Below, piece after piece: positions 14,029 through 29,550 of a stretch of 64,000 bases of DNA (the first letter of the stretch is position 1; each line of letters starts with the position of its first letter). Source of the stretch: Malus domestica. Taxonomy: Eukaryota > Streptophyta > Magnoliopsida > Rosales > Rosaceae. The translations under genes were made by a program, and so were the position numbers. The notes under the pieces were generated by a model, which made no database searches, was not told where the DNA came from, and was given only the letters and a program-made list of their open reading frames with translations. Where the stretch lies: contig NC_091675.1 in assembly GCF_042453785.1 (NCBI RefSeq), positions 4,538,501 to 4,602,500 on the forward strand, written 5' to 3'.

Positions 14029-14439
14029 GTCGACGACCTTGTTGGCCTCCTTGATCACTTTGGTGGACAACAGGCATCTGTGGTGGGACATGACCACGGA
14101 GCGCTAGGAAAAGAAAAGGGAGACCACCAGTAAAGCTACAGGAAAAAAAACAAAAGCATAAAAGAGAAAGTAAAAGCAAAAGAAAGCAGAAAAGGAAAAG
14201 CCGAAAAGAAGATGCTCCACTATTCCACTATTCCACTATTCCACGGGATAACATGATTAAAGATAAGAAGATGCCCACCAAGGTTCCTTGTCTCCACTTT
14301 CTGTTGGACCAGAAGATGCCCATCAACATGTTGAAAACATTTAATTTATTTTTCTTATATTTCTGAGACATCTGTATAACCCATCAGAGGGTAATAATAA
14401 TAAAAAAAAAAGGCAAGCAAAAGAGCCAGGCCTTATGGC

Positions 14440-14708
14440 TCCAAAATTATTTGGCAGCCTGCCGCTATTATCACCAACCAGGTGATCAAAAGTACGTCCA
14501 GTACTCTAAAATTATTCTGCAGCCTGCCACTATTATCACCAACCAAGTGATCAAAAGTACGCCCAGTACTCCGAAATTATTCGGCACCATGCCGCTATTA
14601 TCACTAACCAGGTGATGAAAAGTACGCTCCGTACTCCAAAATTATTCAGCAGCCTGCCACTATTATCACCCACTAGGTGATCAAAAGTACGTCCAGTACT
14701 CCAAAATT
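14440..14708. repeat. Tandem array, about four copies of a 65-bp unit
   Basis: The core GCC(G/A)CTATTATCACCAACC recurs near 14461, 14526, 14591 and 14656, a spacing of 65 bp. Each unit also carries GGTGATCAAAAGTACG and CCAGTACTCCAAAATTATT. It lies within the LTR-type element and has no coding sense. Confidence 0.85.
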
Positions 14709-15090
14709 ATACATGAGCATCACTCATGTCAATCATACATAAACATTCATGAGCATCACTCATGTCAATCATACATAAACATTCATGACCATCATTCATA
14801 TCAACATTCATGAGCATCACTCATGTCAGTATTCATGAGCATCACTTATGTCAATATCCATGAGCATCACTCATGTCAATCAACATAAATATTCATGAGC
14901 ATCACTCATGTCAATCATACATAAACATTCATGACCAGCATTCACGTCAACATTCATGAGCATCACTCATGTCAACATTCATGAACATCACTCATGTCAA
15001 CATTCATGAGCATCACTCATGTCAATATCCATGAGCATTACTCATGTTAATCAACATAAACATTCATGAGCATCACTCATGTCAATCAGC
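14709..15090. repeat. Short-period satellite-like array (CATGAGCATCACTCATGTCA)
   Basis: Units of about 24 and 36 bp built on ATTCATGAGCATCACTCATGTCAA, some with an added TCATACATAAAC spacer, repeat about a dozen times. The unit holds a small palindrome (CATGAG..CTCATG). It passes into a second low-complexity block (15085-15190) made of AGCTTCATTTACA-like units. It is internal to the LTR-type element. Confidence 0.85.
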
Positions 15091-15339
15091 TTCGAAAGCT
15101 TCATTTACAGAGCTTCATCTTCAAAAGCTTCATTTACAAAAACTCCAGCTTCAAATCTTCACTTGCAAAGCTTCACCTACAAAGCTTCAGTGCAGGGTAT
15201 ACAAATACCGGCTCCGAACAACCACCATTTCGGCCTATACATAGATTGAATTTGAAGTCTCCAGCCAACAACCTTTATTGACTGAAGACTTGGGGGATTA
15301 CAATGTGTACCATATATTGGGCTTCCACAACTGGGCATC

Positions 15340-15835
15340 ACGAAAAATACTTGGGGGACTTAGCCCATTATTTATGTACTGAGGAGCGAGCCCTTATTTT
15401 ATAAAAGGGACTCCCTCACTTTCATTAGAAAGCACCTATTATTCATGTACTGAGGAGCGAGCCCTTATTTTATAAAAGGGACTCCCTCACCTTCATTAGA
15501 TAGCATCGCCGCCTTACCGCGAGCATCACTCCTAACCCATCACTTATGTATTGAGGAGCGAACCTTTATTCTATAAAAGGGACTCATTCACCATCATTAG
15601 AGAGCATCGCCGCCTATTGAGCAACCAGCTCACCGCGAGCATCAACTCTAGCCCATCATTTATGTATTGAGGAGCGAGCCCTTATTCTATAAAAGTGACT
15701 CTCTTACCATCATTAGAGAGCATCGCCGCCTATTGAGCAACCACCTCGCTGCGAGCATCAACTCTAGCCCATCATTTATGTATTAAGGAGCGAGCCATTA
15801 TTTAATAAAAGGAACTCCCTCACCTTCAACGCCAC
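15340..15835. repeat. Tandem array resembling the promoter part of the LTR
   Basis: Four to five copies of a unit of about 65 to 115 bp contain TTATGTA(C/T)TGAGGAGCGAGCC, then TTATTTTATAAAAGGGACTC, then CATTAGAGAGCATCGCCGCC. The order (ACTTGGGGGACT, then an ATGTA..GGAGC tract, then TATAAAAGG.ACTCC) parallels the first 130 bp of the right LTR. The array therefore looks like an amplified, diverged piece of LTR promoter. Each unit keeps a TATAAAA motif. Confidence 0.75.
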
Positions 15836-17785: not shown

Positions 17786-17795
17786 CTCAACGGCT
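17786..17795 (+). promoter_or_regulatory. Possible mitosis-specific activator (MSA) element
   Basis: CTCAACGGCT matches the plant MSA consensus YCYAACGGYY at nine of ten positions, including the AACGG core bound by three-repeat Myb factors at G2/M. Kinesin-7 genes of the NACK type are known to be driven by such sites. It lies in the leader or proximal promoter of the kinesin-fusion gene. A single short match is weak evidence. Confidence 0.3.
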
Positions 17796-18173
17796 ACTCT
17801 CTCTCTCTCTCTCTCCCTCCCTCCCTCCCTCCCTACCTCCGGTTAAAGCTTCAAGCTTCTAATTATCGGTTTTCCTCTGCTGAAAGCTCCTAAAGCTTCA
17901 CCATCTTCACCTGATATTGTTGTGAGTCTGCGTTTTTTCATATATTCTTTCTTGAAAAAAGATGGATTTTATTTATTAATTTTATGCTTTTGAAGTAGCG
18001 AAATCGGTCGAGGTGATGGGGGTTGGGATATGCTTTTTTTTTCTGAGCCATTTCTTCCCTGTGTTCTAAACTTTTAATTCGTTGTTCGGTTTTGATTTCG
18101 GCTTCACAGGCGCATTTCGTGGTTTTTCGGTGTAGGTTTGCATTTTGCAAAGTCTCAAGGCCAAGCATATATT

Positions 18174-21100
18174 ATGATGATGGCTTCCAGAACTCCTGGA
18201 ACGCCAAGAGCTAAGAAGGAGAAGATTGTTGTTTTAGTGTGTTTAAGGCCTCTAAGCAAAAGGGAGGAACTTGCAAAAGAACAAGTTTCGTGGGATTGCC
18301 TAGGCGATAACACCATTGTTTATAAACCCCCGCCTCACGAACGTTCCGCTCAATCCACCTCGTTTACATTTGGTGTGTAAAAACATCTAATTGTTTTCCC
18401 TTATCTTTGATGATTCTTATTGTACGTTTGTTATGATTGATTGTGTAGATTATTGATCACTGATTTTCTGTTTTGTAGATAAAGTTTTCGGTCCTGGTTC
18501 AACCGAAGCAGTATATGAGGAAGGAGTGAGAAATGTTGCCTTGTCTTCTCTGATGGGAATTAACGGTAGTGATTATTGCTCAAATCATGTCATGTTTTTC
18601 CATCTAAATCTCTACTCGCATTGAATGATTGTTTACGTTCTCTTGTTCGCAGCAACTATATTTGCTTATGGACAAAGTGGCAGTGGCAAGACATACACAA
18701 TGAGACGAATAATGGAAAAAGCTGTGGATGATATCTACAACCATATGATAAAGGTAAGCTCGAAAACCCTTTCGTTGATAGTTCTTTATTTTATTTTTTT
18801 TGTTTATTGGTTCATGCCTTCGCCCATGAGCGGTAGGTCTCGGGTTCGAGACTTGGGAGCAGCCTCTTCATAAATGGGGGTAAGGCTAGCCGACATTCAC
18901 CTCTCCCAGACCCTGCGTAAAGCAGGAGCCTTGTGCACTGGGTACGACCTTTTATTGGTTCATGCCTTGGTAAATGTCTTGGTCTGTTCTGCACCAAGAA
19001 TTGCGGTTTTCTGCTGTTGTTTCTGCAGTTTGATTTACTAAGCTGGTGTTGCTATTGTTTGTTTGCGCAGACTCCAGAGAGAGAGTTTGCAATAAAAATT
19101 TCAGGACTTGAGATATACAATGAGAATGTCCGCGACTTGCTGAATACAGAATCTGTTGGTAATTTAAAGCTTTTAGATGATCCAGAGGTATTGCCCTTCT
19201 AAACTTACTATAATCTTCAGTGAAATAATTAATCCTCCTTTTACTTATTTAAGTTCGAATGTTTTCTTGAATGTAGAAAGGAATCGTGGTTGAGAAATTG
19301 GTGGAGGAAGCTGCAAGCAGTCATCAGCACCTGAGAAGTTTAATCGGAATTTGCGAGGGTAATTCAGTGGAGCCCTTTACTTGGTTAGCTTCGTATTCTC
19401 TCAAATTTTTTTCATTAGCAATTAGTTAATCAGCTTGTTTTTGTGTCAGCTCAAAGAGAAGTTGGTGAAACTGCTCTAAACGAAAACAGTTCACGGTCTC
19501 ATCAAATAATAAGGCTGGTCAGTTCCTTAGTCTCTCTTCATCACAACATCTTTGATGTTTTCTAATGAAGTACTTTTCTTCTTCCGACAACTAACACTTT
19601 GTCACTAATATTGTCTTTCTGTACAGACAATTGAAAGTACAGTCCGTGAAAGTTTAGACTGCAGGACGTCTTTCGTTGCAAGCCTGGTAAATCTAAAATA
19701 AGAAACAGAAGTTGCAACTGAGTTGGATTCTTGGTTAACAGCTAAAAACTGCAATCTGAATGATCTGCAGAATTTTGTAGACCTAGCTGGAAGCGAAAGA
19801 GCTCCAGATACGCATGCAGACGGTGTTAGGCTAAGGGAAGGCTGCCATATTAACCTTAGTTTGATGACACTTACTAACGTTATCAGAAAGCTCAGGTCAG
19901 AATCTATATAGCAGGACAGAAGGACCATTTCAAAGTTTCAAGTATGAGATTACGTGATAGATATATCTGATATATAGTCAATTTGGTTGCTCACTCTTCG
20001 ACTTGATTATCAGTGCTGGAAAATTAAGTGGTCCTATACCTTATCGAGACTCAAAGCTCACTCGCATATTGCAACATTCTCTTGGAGGAAACGCTCGCAC
20101 TGCCATCATATGTACCTTGAGTCCAGCACTGAGCCACGCTGAACAATCTCGAAACACTCTCTTCTTTGCTACACAGGCAAAGGAGGTAACAAATGATGCC
20201 AGCGTGAACACGGTATCACTTATCTGCTTATCACCTTTCTTTCAGTTTGCCTGTCTAGAATACAGAAGCTTTTAATCCATTTGTTTCAAAAAAATTATTT
20301 TGCTAGGTTGTATCAGACAAGCAGCTAGTCAAACACTTGCAAAAGCAAGTAGCTAAGCTGGAAGCAGAGCTGTACACCCTTTATCCATTGAGGGAAAGAA
20401 TTCAGCAGGTAAACATTCATATAACATCTGGCCGCTTGATATTTTATTTGATGTGTGTATATGATTTTTTTTTTTTAATTTTTCATAAAATATGATCCTC
20501 ACTAGATGGAAATGGAAATGGAGGATTTGAGAAGCGAAAGAGATTTGGCTCGATCTCAGGCGGATGAGTTACGCCATAAACTTGAGGTTCAGGTGAATCC
20601 CCAACTGTTCGTTCTCCCTCTCGCTGTTCCCCAAGCCCTTGGTCTACCGTTCTCCTCTCCCCTGTATAAGCGTTAGTTTTAGATTTGTCATTAATTCTTG
20701 TTGTATGCCAACTTCAGAGTTTATATCCATTGGAATTACCTCATCGCTCTGTGGACAACTATCTCTCCTACACTGGTGTGCTACCAACATCATTTTATGC
20801 CAAGGAACTAGGAGATTGTGATACAGCAACAAATGCAAGGACCAAGCACTCCATTAGGCACTCGGCAACTCCTCCTTTCATGCCAAGACGTGAAGTTCTA
20901 AAACATGAAATCTCATCAGAGCAACTTTCGGAGGAACCAAGTCGAGCTCTAAAACTAGACGTGCTTTACAAAAGCAAATTGGTGATTGGAGGATTTAGCT
21001 TTCAAAATTTAGCTTTCAGGTGCTTAGAGGATTTATTTCGTCCTCAAATAAACTCTCTCTTACTTTCCACACAGGCAAAGGGTGAATCTAACATGGTACT

Positions 21101-24100
21101 ACTTTTTTGCTCATCACGTTTTTCAGTTCGCATTTTTACATACTCAGAATACAAACCTATTAATATATTTATTTCAAATACTTTGCTAGGTTGTTTCGGA
21201 CAAGAATCTAGTTAAACGTTTGCAAATGGAAGTGCTCAGGCGGGAAACAGAGGTACCCACCGTGTCAAGGGAAGAAGATTTAAGAATTCAGAAGGTAAAC
21301 CTTCCATACAAAGTGTTGCTTGATATTTTATATCGTGTCTGTAAATGTATATTATAGGAATATTTTGTATTATGTTTTCCTAAATTTTTACTGTGTTCCA
21401 AATTCAGGTTTTAAACCAACTGGAATTACCGCATCCTTATGTAAAGAAACTTATCTTCTGCATCGGTGTGCTACCTGCAACATTTTATGCTGAGGAGCTA
21501 GGAGGCGGTGATAGGGCAAGAAATACAATGATCAGGCACTCCATGAGGCTCTCATCATTTGCTCCTTTTACGCTAAACCATGAAATTCTAAGACTTGAAG
21601 TCCTGCTGGTGCAACTTGGGGAGGGACCAAGTCGAGCATTGGAAATACTAATACAGAAGGAGGTACTAGAAAACCATGATAGGGCAAGAAATACAATGAT
21701 CAGGCACCCCATGAGGCTCTCATCATTTGCTCCTTTCATGCTAAACCGTGAAATTCTTAAACTTGAAGTCTTGCTGGCTCAACTTGGGGAGGGACCAAGT
21801 CGGGCTTTGGAAATAGTATTACAAAAGGAGGTAGCCTGGCAGGGACTAGAAAACCAAGATGCAGGTGAAACTTTTTGTAACCTGCAAGCAGAGATAAAAG
21901 AAACGCATTATACCAGTTCTCGGCCAAAAGAATTTGAAGTAGGAAGTCTTGTTCCTGTTAATAAAAAAGAAATTCCTAGACTTCACTCACAGGGCAGCGC
22001 CATTGCAAATCTTGAAGAACAGTTTCCAAAGGTGCAGTATTTTACAGACAAATTAGTGTCTCTCCCTTGCATTCAATTGTTGGTTTTGAGGTTCTTGGAG
22101 GATTTATTTCGTCCTCGTGAGGTTACTGGTGATGTTTTGGAACAAATTAAGAACGAGGTAATATAACTAGTCAAGCGTTTTATTTACTTCATTTTATTTA
22201 AATGATTCTTGAAACATTTAACTGTAATCATAATGTTCAAATGTTGTCAAGAAGATGAAACGGGACCCCTCTTGGTGTTTTGCAGCCTGTAAAACATAAC
22301 ATAGTTCCGTTGCTCGGATGTTGGCAAGAAGATGAAGCCGAAGTTGATGGTGGCTTTCATCTTGAACCAGGAACATCAAATGCTGCTTCTCCAGATGTAT
22401 CTGCTGTAGAATATGACCATATCAGTGAACATGTTTTTCATGTTAAAGTAGAACATCCTGCAGATAGATATGAGAAGAAGGCTATTTCTGATGAAGCCAA
22501 AGAGCTCATGGATTGTCATAGGGAGACAAGTGACAGCGGTGCATTCCGTAATGGGAAGATTGATGTCTCCGAAAATCGTGATTTCTTGGGCTTCCTATGT
22601 AGCAATGGTGGTCAGCTGCTGATTTGTAATACAAGTAATTGCCCTTTCGTATTTCATCAGAACTTCTTGGATTCTGACTTAATATGCTATAAGAAGGGTA
22701 AATATTACTGCCCCATCTGTTCATATTCTCTTGCTTATGAGAATAGGCTGGGTGAGATAGAAGAAAAGTTGAGAAGAAAGGCAGTGGCTTTTGATGAAGT
22801 CTTCTCCGGCTGTACTGATGGTTGTACCGTTAATGAACAAATGAATGCGCGAAATGAAAATGGTTATGGTTGTGACTGTCAATTTGACGATGCTCAAGTT
22901 CATAACCAATTTGTCGGAGTGGAAGACAATGAGATCAAAGAAGGGACGGAGTTTGAGGTTGAAGATGAGAACAATGGTGGCAACAGTGTCAGTTGTAGAG
23001 GTGAAGGCACCAATGAAATAATTAGAGGAGGTTCTGGACACCCATGCGTATCTGAACTGCTTGAGTTGCAACAGGATGAGGAAACTGCTGTCGAAGAAAA
23101 TTCAGGCGAAAATGAAGAAGATGAAGGTGGGAAAAGGGTGTTTGTGGAGAAAGAAGACGAAATTGAGAATGCAGAACTTATGCAACCAGAATCAATGGAA
23201 TTGCCCTCAAATACCATTGTTCTATCTGACACGGAGTCTCCTTTAGTGCATAAAAGAAGGGAAGACAATGAGATCAAGGAAGGGATGAAGTTTGAGGTTG
23301 AAGATGAGAACAATGATGGTGACAGTGTCAGTTGTAGAGGTGAAGGCACCAATGAAGTAATTAGAGGAGATTCGGAACACCCGTGCCTATCTGAACTGCT
23401 TGAGTTGCAACAGGATGAGGAAACTGCTGTCGAAGAAAATTCAGACAAAAATGAAGAAGATGAAGGTGGGAAAAAGGTGTTTGCGGAGAAAGAAGACGAA
23501 ATTGAGAATGCAGAACTTATGCAACCAGAATCAATGGAAGTGCCCTTAAATACCATTGTTCTATCTGACACAGAGTCTCCTGTAGTGCATAAAAGAAGGG
23601 AAGACAATGAGATCAAAGAAGGGATGAAGTTTGAGGTTGAAGATGAGAACAATGATAGTGACAATGTCAGTTGTAGAGGTGAAGGCACCAATGAAGTAAT
23701 TAGAGGAGATTCAGAACACCCGTGCGTATCTGAACTGCTTGAGTTGCAACAGGATGAGGAAACTGCTGTTGAAGAAAATTCAGACAAAAATGAAGAAGAT
23801 GAAGGTGGGAAAAGGGTGTTTGCGGAGACAGAAAACGAAATTAAGAATGCAGAACTTATGCAACCAGAATCTCTGGAAATGCCCTCAAATACCATTGTTC
23901 TATCTGACACAGAGTCTCCTGTAGTGCATAAAAACCATGAAAAAGCGCCAAAGAGTTTTACCATCGTTCTGTCTGATTCCTCGGAATCTGATGCTTCAGA
24001 TACTTGGTCTCCTTCCATGGAACCGGAAGTTTCAGATACTCGGCCTCCTCTACTGGGCGAGATACAGCCTAAACATAAAGGTCAAAAGACAAGAGAATTC

Positions 24101-24724
24101 GGAAATCAACCAACGAGGTGATTGGGGGGTTAAGCTATCGATTTGGAGTTTATTTTATGAACTTTTACATGCAGTTATCGATTGTTAATCAACTGTTTCT
24201 CCTAACATGCAGCTCAAACTTGCCACTGCCTAGGACGAGGCGGCGTATGAGATTATACTGGACAAGAGAAGAAGAAGAAAAGTTGAAGGTATTTAATTAT
24301 CTAAACTGAAGTAGTATCGTGGATGTGTGATTTCATCCAGATTATATAAACCATCTTGTTGCTTCGCTTAATTTCGAAACTCAAATTGTCGTTTCTAAGA
24401 TGTCCTTCATTTTCTTAAACTTACAAATGCTGAACTCTCCATTTCCAATCAAATTTCGAAAAGTTCTTGGAAATTTTCTATTTTGTAGTTGCGTCGGAAT
24501 CTAACATAAGTAATCTTATGCTCCAGGAGCTTGTGAACAGTTTTCCAACCACTGGAAAGTACCGATGCTGGAAGAAAATTTTGGAAAATGGTCGCGATGT
24601 ATTTCACAAGGATCGAACTCCGAATGATCTGAGAAATAAATGGGGAAAGATGCGGGTGAAAGGTGCGGTTGATCACTTTCTAACTCTCCGAGAAAACATT
24701 TGTTCCATTCGAAAAATGAATTGA
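18174..24724 (+). CDS. Kinesin-7-type motor fused to a PHD/RING-like, SIM-repeat, Myb/TRF-like C-terminus
   Basis: Seventeen exons: 18174-18372, 18479-18565, 18653-18753, 19071-19187, 19277-19358, 19450-19517, 19627-19686, 19771-19895, 20014-20212, 20307-20408, 20506-20592, 20718-21095, 21190-21294, 21408-22157, 22286-24117, 24213-24288, 24527-24724. They sum to 4566 bases, one open frame of 1521 residues. Residues 18-340 are the motor: P-loop GQSGSGKT (102-109), SSRSH, DLAGSE and the KIN-7 neck [12 protein letters not shown]. Residues 347-820 hold duplicated KIN-7 stalk blocks. Residues about 922-968 form a Cys/His module ([20 protein letters not shown]). Three 113-residue repeats follow, then a Myb-like end ([23 protein letters not shown]). 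Motor loops look largely intact (for example HINLSLMTL for HINRSLLTL). The likely start is the first of three in-frame ATGs. The alternative is two genes; the 128-bp gap between exons 14 and 15 leaves no room for a promoter. Confidence 0.8.
18821..18950 (+). mobile_element. Au-like SINE in the third intron of the kinesin-fusion gene
   Basis: About 130 bp: CGCCCATGAGCGGTAGGTC, a Pol III B-box (GGTTCGAGAC), then GTAAGGCTAGCCGACATTC, CTCCCAGACCCTGCGTAAAG and GTGCACTGGGTACGACC with a short T end. This order is that of the widespread plant Au SINE family. It is bracketed by an 18-bp direct repeat, TTTATTGGTTCATGCCTT, at 18803-18820 and 18951-18968. Perfect flanks and a full-length body suggest a fairly young insertion. 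It lies in sense orientation inside the intron. Confidence 0.92.
20307..22157 (+). repeat. Exon-block duplication inside the kinesin-7 stalk
   Basis: The neck exon [12 protein letters not shown] (20307-20408) returns as [12 protein letters not shown] (21190-21294). The LELPH..GVLP.(S/T)FYA(K/E)ELG block (from 20718) returns at 21408. The block [17 protein letters not shown] returns twice, as [11 protein letters not shown] and [11 protein letters not shown] with [12 protein letters not shown], the second pair being a local duplication of about 175 bp (21520-21660 and 21680-21835). LEDLFRP occurs at about 21025 and 22100. Single-copy KIN-7 proteins carry one such block, followed by NQDAAET-like sequence, here once at about 21855. 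Confidence 0.8.
22922..23938 (+). repeat. Three 339-bp in-frame repeats encoding acidic, SIM-like units
   Basis: Units start at GAAGACAATGAGATCAA at 22922, 23261 and 23600, exactly 339 bp (113 codons) apart, ending at 23938. Each encodes [16 protein letters not shown], a Cys-containing [24 protein letters not shown] and closes with [11 protein letters not shown]. Units 2 and 3 are more alike than either is to unit 1. IVLSDTES (hydrophobic core followed by acidic and Ser residues) fits a SUMO-interacting motif with CK2-type sites; a fourth, [11 protein letters not shown], follows directly at about 23960. Confidence 0.9.
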
Positions 24725-25681
24725 GGAAGGACTTGCTTCGATCTCTATGATTATTTAATCGCATTTACACACATATTTCTCTAAAACGATGCACTTCGAT
24801 GCAGGCAATGCTGAATTCTGACTTCTGAAAGCGGCGAACTGCATAGAATGTACTGAAACCTCGCTTCGTGACCATCGGCATTCTTTGAGATTTTAGATCA
24901 AAGAATTTGACTTGATATGTAAATTGACTTTGTAGCAATATGTAAAAATGTTTTTGCATCCTAAGAAACCTGTACATATCTCACCATTTGCAAAAAGTAG
25001 AGCAGCAGGCCCTCACTGATTCATACACCAGAAGACTAGCCAGACATAAAACTAAAACTTGGATTACAAGAAACCGATGTGAATTACAACGATATGAGTT
25101 AGAAACCAAGACTGCATACGAACAAACTAATTACCATAAGGAGAAAAGATTGAAATTTGCTCCAGATATATTGATAAGCCCGGTCTTAATCTTCCGTAGC
25201 CTTCGCTACAAGAAACCCTTGGCTGCCTTGTAACGAGAAGCATAGTACAAGTTCATGAGATGGTAAAAAATATAACAGGGAAGACAAAATTCTTTGTATA
25301 TTTTCTTTCCAAGACATTTCATTGATGAAATGACCACTTCTAACCTCTATCTCTCTCTCACAACTGTAATTACAATCCTATCACAACCAAACAAACATAT
25401 ACTTTTCTGTAAAGATTTGGACCACAAGAAATCAACATATCATGTACAATTTGGTATTGGAACAAATAGCATCATCACCAGAGGCTTGAGTCCCAGAGGG
25501 ACTATTCAGCAGGACAATCAGCAAGCATTTACAAGAGTCCCAGCGCAGGTCCATACGACAGTGTTCTTCACAAGCGGTAGTGTCCTTGCCACTACCAGTT
25601 TATCCATTGACTTGAAGCTCCATCTTTTATTCAACGAGCAGAGCATGTGCCAATGGTTAACCTCTCTTTCCTTGTGGTTTC
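24725..25681. other. Convergent 3' flanks
   Basis: Lies between the ends of the plus-strand kinesin-fusion gene and the minus-strand BSD gene. It should hold the 3' untranslated regions of both. No further coding signal, RNA gene or mobile-element end was recognised. Confidence 0.5.
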
Positions 25682-29083: not shown

Positions 29084-29550
29084 GAGTAAATTGTACAAAT
29101 TGTCCCTTAACTTTAATCAAATTGGAGCAATGGTCCCTCAACTAAAAATCCATTACCTTTGGTCCCTCAACTTATCAAAACGTGCAGCTATGGTCCCTCA
29201 ACTAAAAATTCATTACCATTAGTCCCTGAACTTTAATTCAAGTGGAGAAATGGTCCTTTAACTTTAACCCAATTGTAGCAATGGTCCTTTCAATATAACT
29301 CGTTTTGACAAATTTTTTGACATAGTTGACGAAAAGAACCATAATTATACACTTTGATGAGTTAAGGGACCCTAATTATATAAATGGTCATTCCAACATA
29401 GCTTATTTTGACAAAATTTTGACAAAATTGATGAAAAGGACTATAGCTACACATTTTGATAAGTTGAGGGACCAATGGTAATGGATTTTTAGTTGAGGGA
29501 CCATTGCTCTAATTTGATTAAAGTTGAGGGACCATTTGTACAATTTACTC
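29084..29550. mobile_element. Mutator-like MITE, 467 bp
   Basis: Terminal inverted repeats of about 100 bp begin GAGTAAATTGTACAAATTGT on the left, with the right end its near reverse complement ending GTACAATTTACTC. A perfect 9-bp direct repeat TTTTAATAA flanks it (29075-29083 and 29551-29559), the Mutator target-site size. Both arms are built from internal repeats of TGGTCCCTCAACT(A/T) type, so the whole can fold into a long hairpin. No reading frame. Confidence 0.88.

Follow-up and report, generated by a model that had tools for sequence, protein, structure and literature searches.

A candidate chimeric gene of Malus domestica joining a kinesin-7-type motor to a PHD-like, SIM-like and Myb tail

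The gene considered here lies at positions 18174-24724, plus strand, of a 64,000-nucleotide stretch of the Malus domestica genome (assembly GCF_042453785.1, contig NC_091675.1, positions 4,538,501 to 4,602,500), which is referred to below as the window and to which all coordinates belong. Rebuilt from the raw sequence, it consists of 17 exons totalling 4566 nt, and all 16 introns are bounded by GT..AG. The frame comprises 1522 codons including the stop (1521 residues), with no premature stop and no frameshift, exactly as a preliminary description of this DNA had counted them. That description read the protein as a kinesin-7 motor followed by a PHD/RING-like module, repeats of a SUMO-interacting motif (SIM) and a Myb/TRF-like end. 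The gene is made up of the following parts.

18174-20212, plus strand: exons 1-9, kinesin motor domain (amino acids [aa] 1-346) with P-loop GQSGSGKT, switch I NENSSRSH and switch II DLAGSE
20307-20592, plus strand: exons 10-11 of the rebuilt gene model, which we take to be the kinesin-7 neck and the start of the coiled coil
20718-21095, plus strand: exon 12, stalk copy 1 and first LEDLFRP motif (20998-21045), after which a second duplicate unit begins
21190-21294, plus strand: exon 13, second neck exon, a copy of exon 10
21408-22067, plus strand: exon 14 up to the probable seam, stalk copy 2, including a 168-bp tandem duplication (21492-21827)
22068-22157, plus strand: tail of exon 14 (LEDLFRP stretch), putative first-exon remnant of the tail gene
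22158-22285, plus strand: intron 14, 128 bp; if retained, a stop follows Val-Ile at 22164-22166
22286-24117, plus strand: exon 15, linker, PHD-like finger, three 339-bp acidic repeats and SIM-like motifs; first in-frame ATG at 22508
22577-22729, plus strand: PHD-like Cys/His finger, from alignment to CHD4 and PHF21A
22921-23933, plus strand: three 339-bp tandem repeats, in frame, 93-95% identical, with one TIVLSD SIM-like motif each
23960-23992, plus strand: fourth SIM-like motif, outside the 339-bp repeats
24253-24649, plus strand: Myb domain (aa 1445-1497), split across exons 16 and 17 and preceded by the basic stretch RTRRRMR
24805-24821, plus strand: possible alternative last exon, spliced from donor 24662 to acceptor 24805 and closing the protein with GNAEF before a stop
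17786-17796, plus strand: MSA-like element CTCAACGGCTA, about 390 bp before the ATG, matching 10 of 11 consensus positions

According to Pfam, the first half carries a kinesin motor that is covered by almost the whole profile (PF00225, aa 24-338, profile positions 2-327 of 327, 309.7 bits, E 2.6e-92), with P-loop, switch I and switch II all intact. In a PDB search with the first 409 residues, two CENP-E (kinesin-7) entries have the highest scores among the matches shown, which are the best 60 of 156 (250.1 and 245.6 bits), followed by KIF3B (215.3 bits); this is a ranking by score and not by tree. Judged by the profile and by these scores, the motor is of kinesin-7 type, as had been claimed. 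The neck and stalk blocks presumably resemble those of NACK1, and none of the 12 Pfam hits that the 1521-residue protein gives up to E 1 is a DUF3490/NACK_C tail.

As for the tail half, phmmer relates its Cys/His module to PHD fingers, namely the CHD4 two-finger chain (E 4.1e-7), a single CHD4 finger (6.6e-6) and PHF21A (1.9e-5). The Pfam PHD score, in turn, is 13.0 bits, below the cut-off of 24, and the alignment to CHD4 keeps 6 of the 8 metal ligands of the C4HC3 set. The first cysteine and the cysteine position after the histidine are lost, both of which we assign to zinc site I. By this alignment the module is degenerate and is properly called PHD-like, 'PHD finger' being too strong a name; the PHD likeness in the preliminary description holds, and a complete finger does not.

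Four TIVLSD SIM-like motifs were found with a pattern that we assume to describe SIMs (the consensus, then acidic or serine residues). Shuffled versions of aa 821-1430 contain 0.58 on average, and at least four occurred in 0.35% of 2000 shuffles (P = 0.0035). Three of the four are copies made through the 339-bp tandem repeat, so that the independent occurrences number two at most. Each repeat encodes 113 residues, and Asp and Glu make up 30% of aa 1031-1370. The repeats lengthen the acidic linker and raise the number of SIM-like motifs, an apparent sign of recent repeat growth. The SIM repeats described earlier are present as motif matches, with at most two independent cases, and the binding of SUMO is a prediction.

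The Myb domain scores above its Pfam cut-off (Myb_DNA-binding, aa 1445-1497, 28.6 bits versus 24.4, E 1.6e-6) and is followed by 24 residues, or by 9 with the alternative last exon. Its telobox region reads DLRNKWGK, which keeps 3 of the 7 residues of LKDKWRT, and the 8 PDB hits of the domain up to E 10 include no telomere protein, consisting instead of Myb-type and unrelated proteins. In the available portions of two papers, the telobox of telomere binders is given as VDLKDKWR or LKDKWRT (PMC4519885, PMC4924339), and TRF-like (TRFL) proteins without a Myb extension (family 2) are described as having no specific telomeric DNA binding in vitro (PMC4924339). Telomere binding was rejected as unsupported on these three grounds, and the Myb domain of the end described earlier stands. 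Two further analyses added little: an AlphaFold model of aa 879-1028 computed without an alignment reached a mean pLDDT of 34.3 and was dropped, and NCBIfam returned one chance-level match (E 0.2) on exons 14 and 15.

The two halves are joined by intron 14, whose splice sites were scored with a matrix built from the other 15 introns of the gene. Its donor ranks first among the GTs in 21900-22400 and its acceptor second among the AGs in 22100-22520, scores as high being reached by 1.7% of GTs and 0.7% of AGs in the window, respectively. These values support a strong splice junction between the halves, across the 128-bp GT..AG intron between 22157 and 22286. The accompanying argument, that such an intron leaves no room for a second promoter, fails, because a short intron is insufficient for it and an internal promoter could overlap exon 14. 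No in-frame ATG occurs between the seam (~22068) and 22508, and a protein that includes the tail of exon 14 must therefore start in kinesin sequence.

Within exon 14 the LEDLFRP stretch directly abuts the stalk, with no intron between them. Its 48-bp core (22069-22116) recurs at 20998-21045 with 81% identity, in the same frame and again right after the stalk, and the protein alignment has a score of 47, which was reached by none of 2000 shuffles of the copy 1 piece (best 42). The NACK stalk block presumably ends near KLVMSLPS (KLV-SLP), and plant TRF-like proteins presumably begin with a helix like the LEDLFRP stretch. If both hold, the seam probably lies inside exon 14 at about 22068 and not at intron 14, and we infer that the LEDLFRP stretch comes from the first exon of the tail gene. 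The proposed fusion is consistent with the single open frame, the absent NACK_C and the strong splice junction, while the place first given to its seam, intron 14, is better moved into exon 14.

The gene also contains a duplication that the preliminary description had missed, with units at ~20150-21046 and 21047-22116. In the first unit, the last part of exon 9 is followed by intron 9, exon 10, the beginning of intron 10, the final part of intron 11 and the stalk exon; the corresponding pieces of the second unit are the last part of exon 12, introns 12 and 13 with exon 13 between them, and exon 14. Because introns were copied as well, the duplication is genomic and not mRNA-borne. Copy 2 has apparently lost the equivalent of exon 11 and carries the further 168-bp tandem duplication, and copy 1 has lost ~220 bp of stalk. 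The repeat spacings of 690, 168 and 339 are all multiples of three. Alignments of the whole units (protein, and MAFFT on DNA) pair the unit 1 stalk with the second of the 168-bp copies, and stalk identities and gaps were therefore taken from piecewise alignments. The stalk followed by LEDLFRP is present in both units in the same frame; should LEDLFRP stem from the tail gene, the fusion would predate the stalk duplication, an order that hangs on this origin. The stalk copies have dS (synonymous divergence) 0.44, which at usual plant rates would mean tens of millions of years.

Whether the frame has been kept by selection can be judged from the copies themselves. Over their first 230 bp the stalk exon copies have 64 differences (28%) and no gaps, and the three pairs of copied introns have 7 gaps in 178 aligned bases (4 in 86, 3 in 59 and 0 in 33). 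The intron rate predicts 9 gaps in the stalk pair, and a plain Poisson count over 230 or 231 bases gives P about 1e-4, a value for the stalk pair alone, the most favourable of three exon pairs and chosen after the fact. End gaps of 9, 1 and 8 bases beyond the 230 bp, where copy 1 has its deletion and the alignment falls apart, were excluded before counting. The exon 10/13 pair has one 3-base gap according to MAFFT versus four (1, 1, 2 and 5 bases) in the pairwise alignment, and the ends of exons 9 and 12 differ by one 15-base gap, with a 1-base end gap added in the pairwise version. Of 252 sites compared between the stalk copies 78 differ, and no stop has arisen, against 2.6 stops expected in a neutral simulation (P = 0.07). 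According to a codon-usage score trained on 1851 codons of seven neighbouring open reading frames (ORFs), in 10 of 11 segments the frame beats random pieces of the window (P = 0.005-0.11), and four of five non-coding controls have P = 0.80-0.97.

A number of results weigh against a selectively kept chimeric gene. When all three exon pairs (370 bases) are compared with the introns, the deficit of gaps has P = 0.04 with MAFFT gaps (2 of 7 in exons) and 0.06-0.09 with pairwise gaps (5 of 12 or 6 of 13 in exons), and over all exon pairs the contrast is suggestive only. Stop tests on the five other pairs, not all independent, give P = 0.42-0.58 each. With a ratio of nonsynonymous to synonymous divergence (dN/dS) of 0.87 between the stalk copies and 0.59-0.69 among the 339-bp repeats, little amino-acid constraint is visible; the 168-bp pair has 0.47 and the neck pair 0.48. 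Wrong-frame controls have ratios of 1.10 and 0.52 for the stalk pair and 0.72 and 0.32 for the 339-bp pair, and dN/dS is no help to the coding claim because some of these are lower than the in-frame values. The codon-usage support is weak overall, with P = 0.30 for stalk copy 1 and P = 0.07 for one non-coding control, intron 3. Moreover, another frame outscores the true one in 4 of 11 segments (stalk copy 1, the stretch before the first Met, the PHD-like segment and the SIM linker), each time with stops. The PHD-like finger lacks 2 of its 8 ligands, and in a bacterial and archaeal sequence collection the motor and the PHD segment gave 89 and 292 pattern matches, none of them confirmed. A viral collection likewise gave 2, 9 and 27 matches for the tail half, the motor and the Myb domain, with none confirmed; the two collections are silent on distribution among plants.

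MSA is a promoter motif of G2/M genes with the consensus YCYAACGGYYA. Three MSA-like sites occur in the 64 kb on both strands, among 54 AACGG cores, and the probability of a chance site within 1 kb upstream of the gene is near 5%. The upstream site would fit a G2/M gene like NACK1, and is no proof of it. The two AACGG cores within 21800-22511 agree with the consensus at only 6 of 11 positions. A search of 21901-22600 for four poly(A)-like hexamers gave a single site, AATAAA at 21960, within the coding exon, and none of three TATA-like hexamers occurs there, plant signals being loose. A scan of 22000-22520 for bacterial-type signals, which is not made for plants and was ignored, gave 2 promoter-like sites where 1.6 are expected, and none that resembles a terminator.

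Taking these results together, a real chimeric gene, expressed as one transcript and working like a chromokinesin with a kinesin-7 motor and a PHD-like/SIM/Myb tail, is moderately favoured by the sequence. Its main rival is a pair of overlapping transcription units, for which the 17-exon chain would be a join on paper; we regard this as rather unlikely. A truncated kinesin of 822 residues would end after exon 14, by reading through intron 14 to the stop at 22164-22166, and the PHD-like/Myb gene would start from its own promoter in exon 14 or intron 14 and be translated from the ATG at 22508. Retention of intron 14 does lead to a stop after two codons, the ATG precedes the PHD-like finger and would yield a complete PHD-SIM-Myb protein, and the halves match unrelated families. 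However, a gene boundary has no need of splice sites whose scores only 1.7% of GTs and 0.7% of AGs in the window reach, and the hexamer counts between the halves, one poly(A)-like and no TATA-like, argue mildly against it as well. Should there be two genes after all, the locus would be a good example of how two genes that lie close together and have splice sites that fit can be mistaken for one.

Less likely still is a decaying chimera, that is, a fused gene which is non-functional or a near-neutral by-product of duplication and has not yet gained a stop. It would agree with the dN/dS of the stalk copies, the deletion in stalk copy 1, the missing NACK_C tail, the two lost PHD ligands and the weak coding scores. 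On the other hand, 1521 codons without stop or frameshift despite an old duplication, motor motifs intact across the whole Pfam profile and a stalk with 0 gaps in 230 bp versus 7 in 178 bp of intron are unexpected under decay, although the contrast over all exons is only suggestive. An alternative of another kind, compatible with any of these readings and unlikely in our estimation, is that the LEDLFRP stretch is the kinesin lineage's own stalk and that the seam lies at intron 14, which would leave the age of the fusion unfixed. In its favour, no outside sequence in the viral and the bacterial and archaeal collections assigns the stretch to a family; against it stand the abrupt start of the stretch after what we take to be the NACK stalk end and its assumed likeness to the TRFL N-terminal helix.

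If the chimeric gene is real, it could have arisen when a duplicated NACK-type kinesin-7 gene that lacked the C-terminal tail was placed upstream of a plant PHD-like/Myb gene. The latter would have resembled TRFL family 2, whose proteins presumably carry a PHD-like finger; its product would have begun with a LEDLFRP-like helix, contained a PHD-like finger and ended in a Myb domain. Both genes would have fused in frame inside the present exon 14, with transcription from the kinesin promoter and its MSA-like G2/M element and splicing to one mRNA. The motor may then carry the protein along mitotic microtubules or anchor it to them, with chromatin or SUMO-modified partners bound by the tail, and the outcome would be chromokinesin-like work or a nuclear regulator brought to the spindle or phragmoplast. 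The single transcript, the NACK ancestry, the mitotic expression, the binding of DNA and SUMO and the motor activity are all predictions in this scheme. Only tentatively do we go further and see in the gene an old, selectively kept plant chromokinesin, whose fusion predates the stalk duplication, whose frame has been held open since and whose SUMO or chromatin cargo is tied to the spindle or phragmoplast. As one protein, the product would mean that a duplicated cytokinesis motor gained a new cargo through a single in-frame fusion, and it would link SUMO and chromatin factors to plant spindle and phragmoplast microtubules.

The 3' end of the gene is less firm than first described, since it may lie at the stop at 24724 or use the acceptor at 24805. 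Donor 24662 scores 6.3 and acceptor 24805 scores 6.7; with the possible intron 24663-24804, GNAEF would replace the last 20 residues (...KMRVKGNAEF and a stop), giving 1506 aa. Intron 3 contains at 18800-18968 a stretch (GGTTCGAG...GGGTAAGGC...CCTTGTGCACTGGGTACGACC) that looks like a tRNA-derived short interspersed nuclear element (SINE). The 18-bp direct repeat on its two sides (18803-18820 and 18951-18968) resembles a target-site duplication, and blastn found no further copy of the stretch in the window. Clear matches for three of the seven neighbouring ORFs scanned are a plant U-box/ARM protein, an LCAT-like protein and an FKBP, and Rfam gave no match in the 64-kb window. Dense nested tandem repeats with periods of 8 to 171 lie upstream of the gene at 14216-15828, and imperfect tandem repeats with periods of ~30, 60 and 102 bp at 29098-29473.

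A search of the full-text literature by titles and the starts of abstracts, with subscription journals mostly outside it, found no paper on a kinesin with a PHD-like/Myb tail, which agrees with the preliminary statement that no described protein of this order is known. The motor-PHD-like-SIM-Myb architecture is probably undescribed and probably belongs among kinesins with added tail domains. In the available part of a 2006 survey of plant kinesins the words Myb and PHD are absent, and its figure legends name zinc-finger and helix-turn-helix domains in kinesins.

Among known systems, NACK1/HINKEL, a plant kinesin-7, is like the gene described here in its kinesin-7-type motor and MSA-like promoter element, and differs from it in that the DUF3490/NACK_C tail is missing here, the stalk is duplicated and partly deleted, and a PHD-like/SIM/Myb tail stands instead. 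According to the available part of one paper, NACK1 switches on the MAPKKK NPK1 in cytokinesis (PMC6421500); because the NACK_C tail is missing here, this gene is unlikely to have kept that role. Plant TRFL proteins of family 2, a family without the Myb extension as far as the available text describes it (PMC4924339), likewise have a single C-terminal Myb domain, which in the gene described here is followed by only 24 residues. In contrast to them, a kinesin motor stands in front, and the telobox is DLRNKWGK and not VDLKDKWR or LKDKWRT (PMC4519885, PMC4924339). The rice proteins OsBC12 and OsDLK are plant kinesins as well, for which nuclear entry and a transcription-regulating role on promoters have been reported (PMC9181729). 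They are a kinesin-4 (PMC3440585) and a kinesin-14 with a leucine zipper, respectively, and the accessible parts of the sources mention neither PHD nor Myb for the latter. Chromokinesins such as KIF4 and the kinesin-10 with a helix-hairpin-helix motif share with the predicted protein the combination of a motor and a DNA- or chromatin-binding part (PMC1434745, PMC9181729, both as available in part). Kinesin-10 with the helix-hairpin-helix DNA-binding motif is present in both plants and animals according to the portion available (PMC1434745). Chromokinesins differ from the gene described here in their kinesin family and in their unrelated tail domains.

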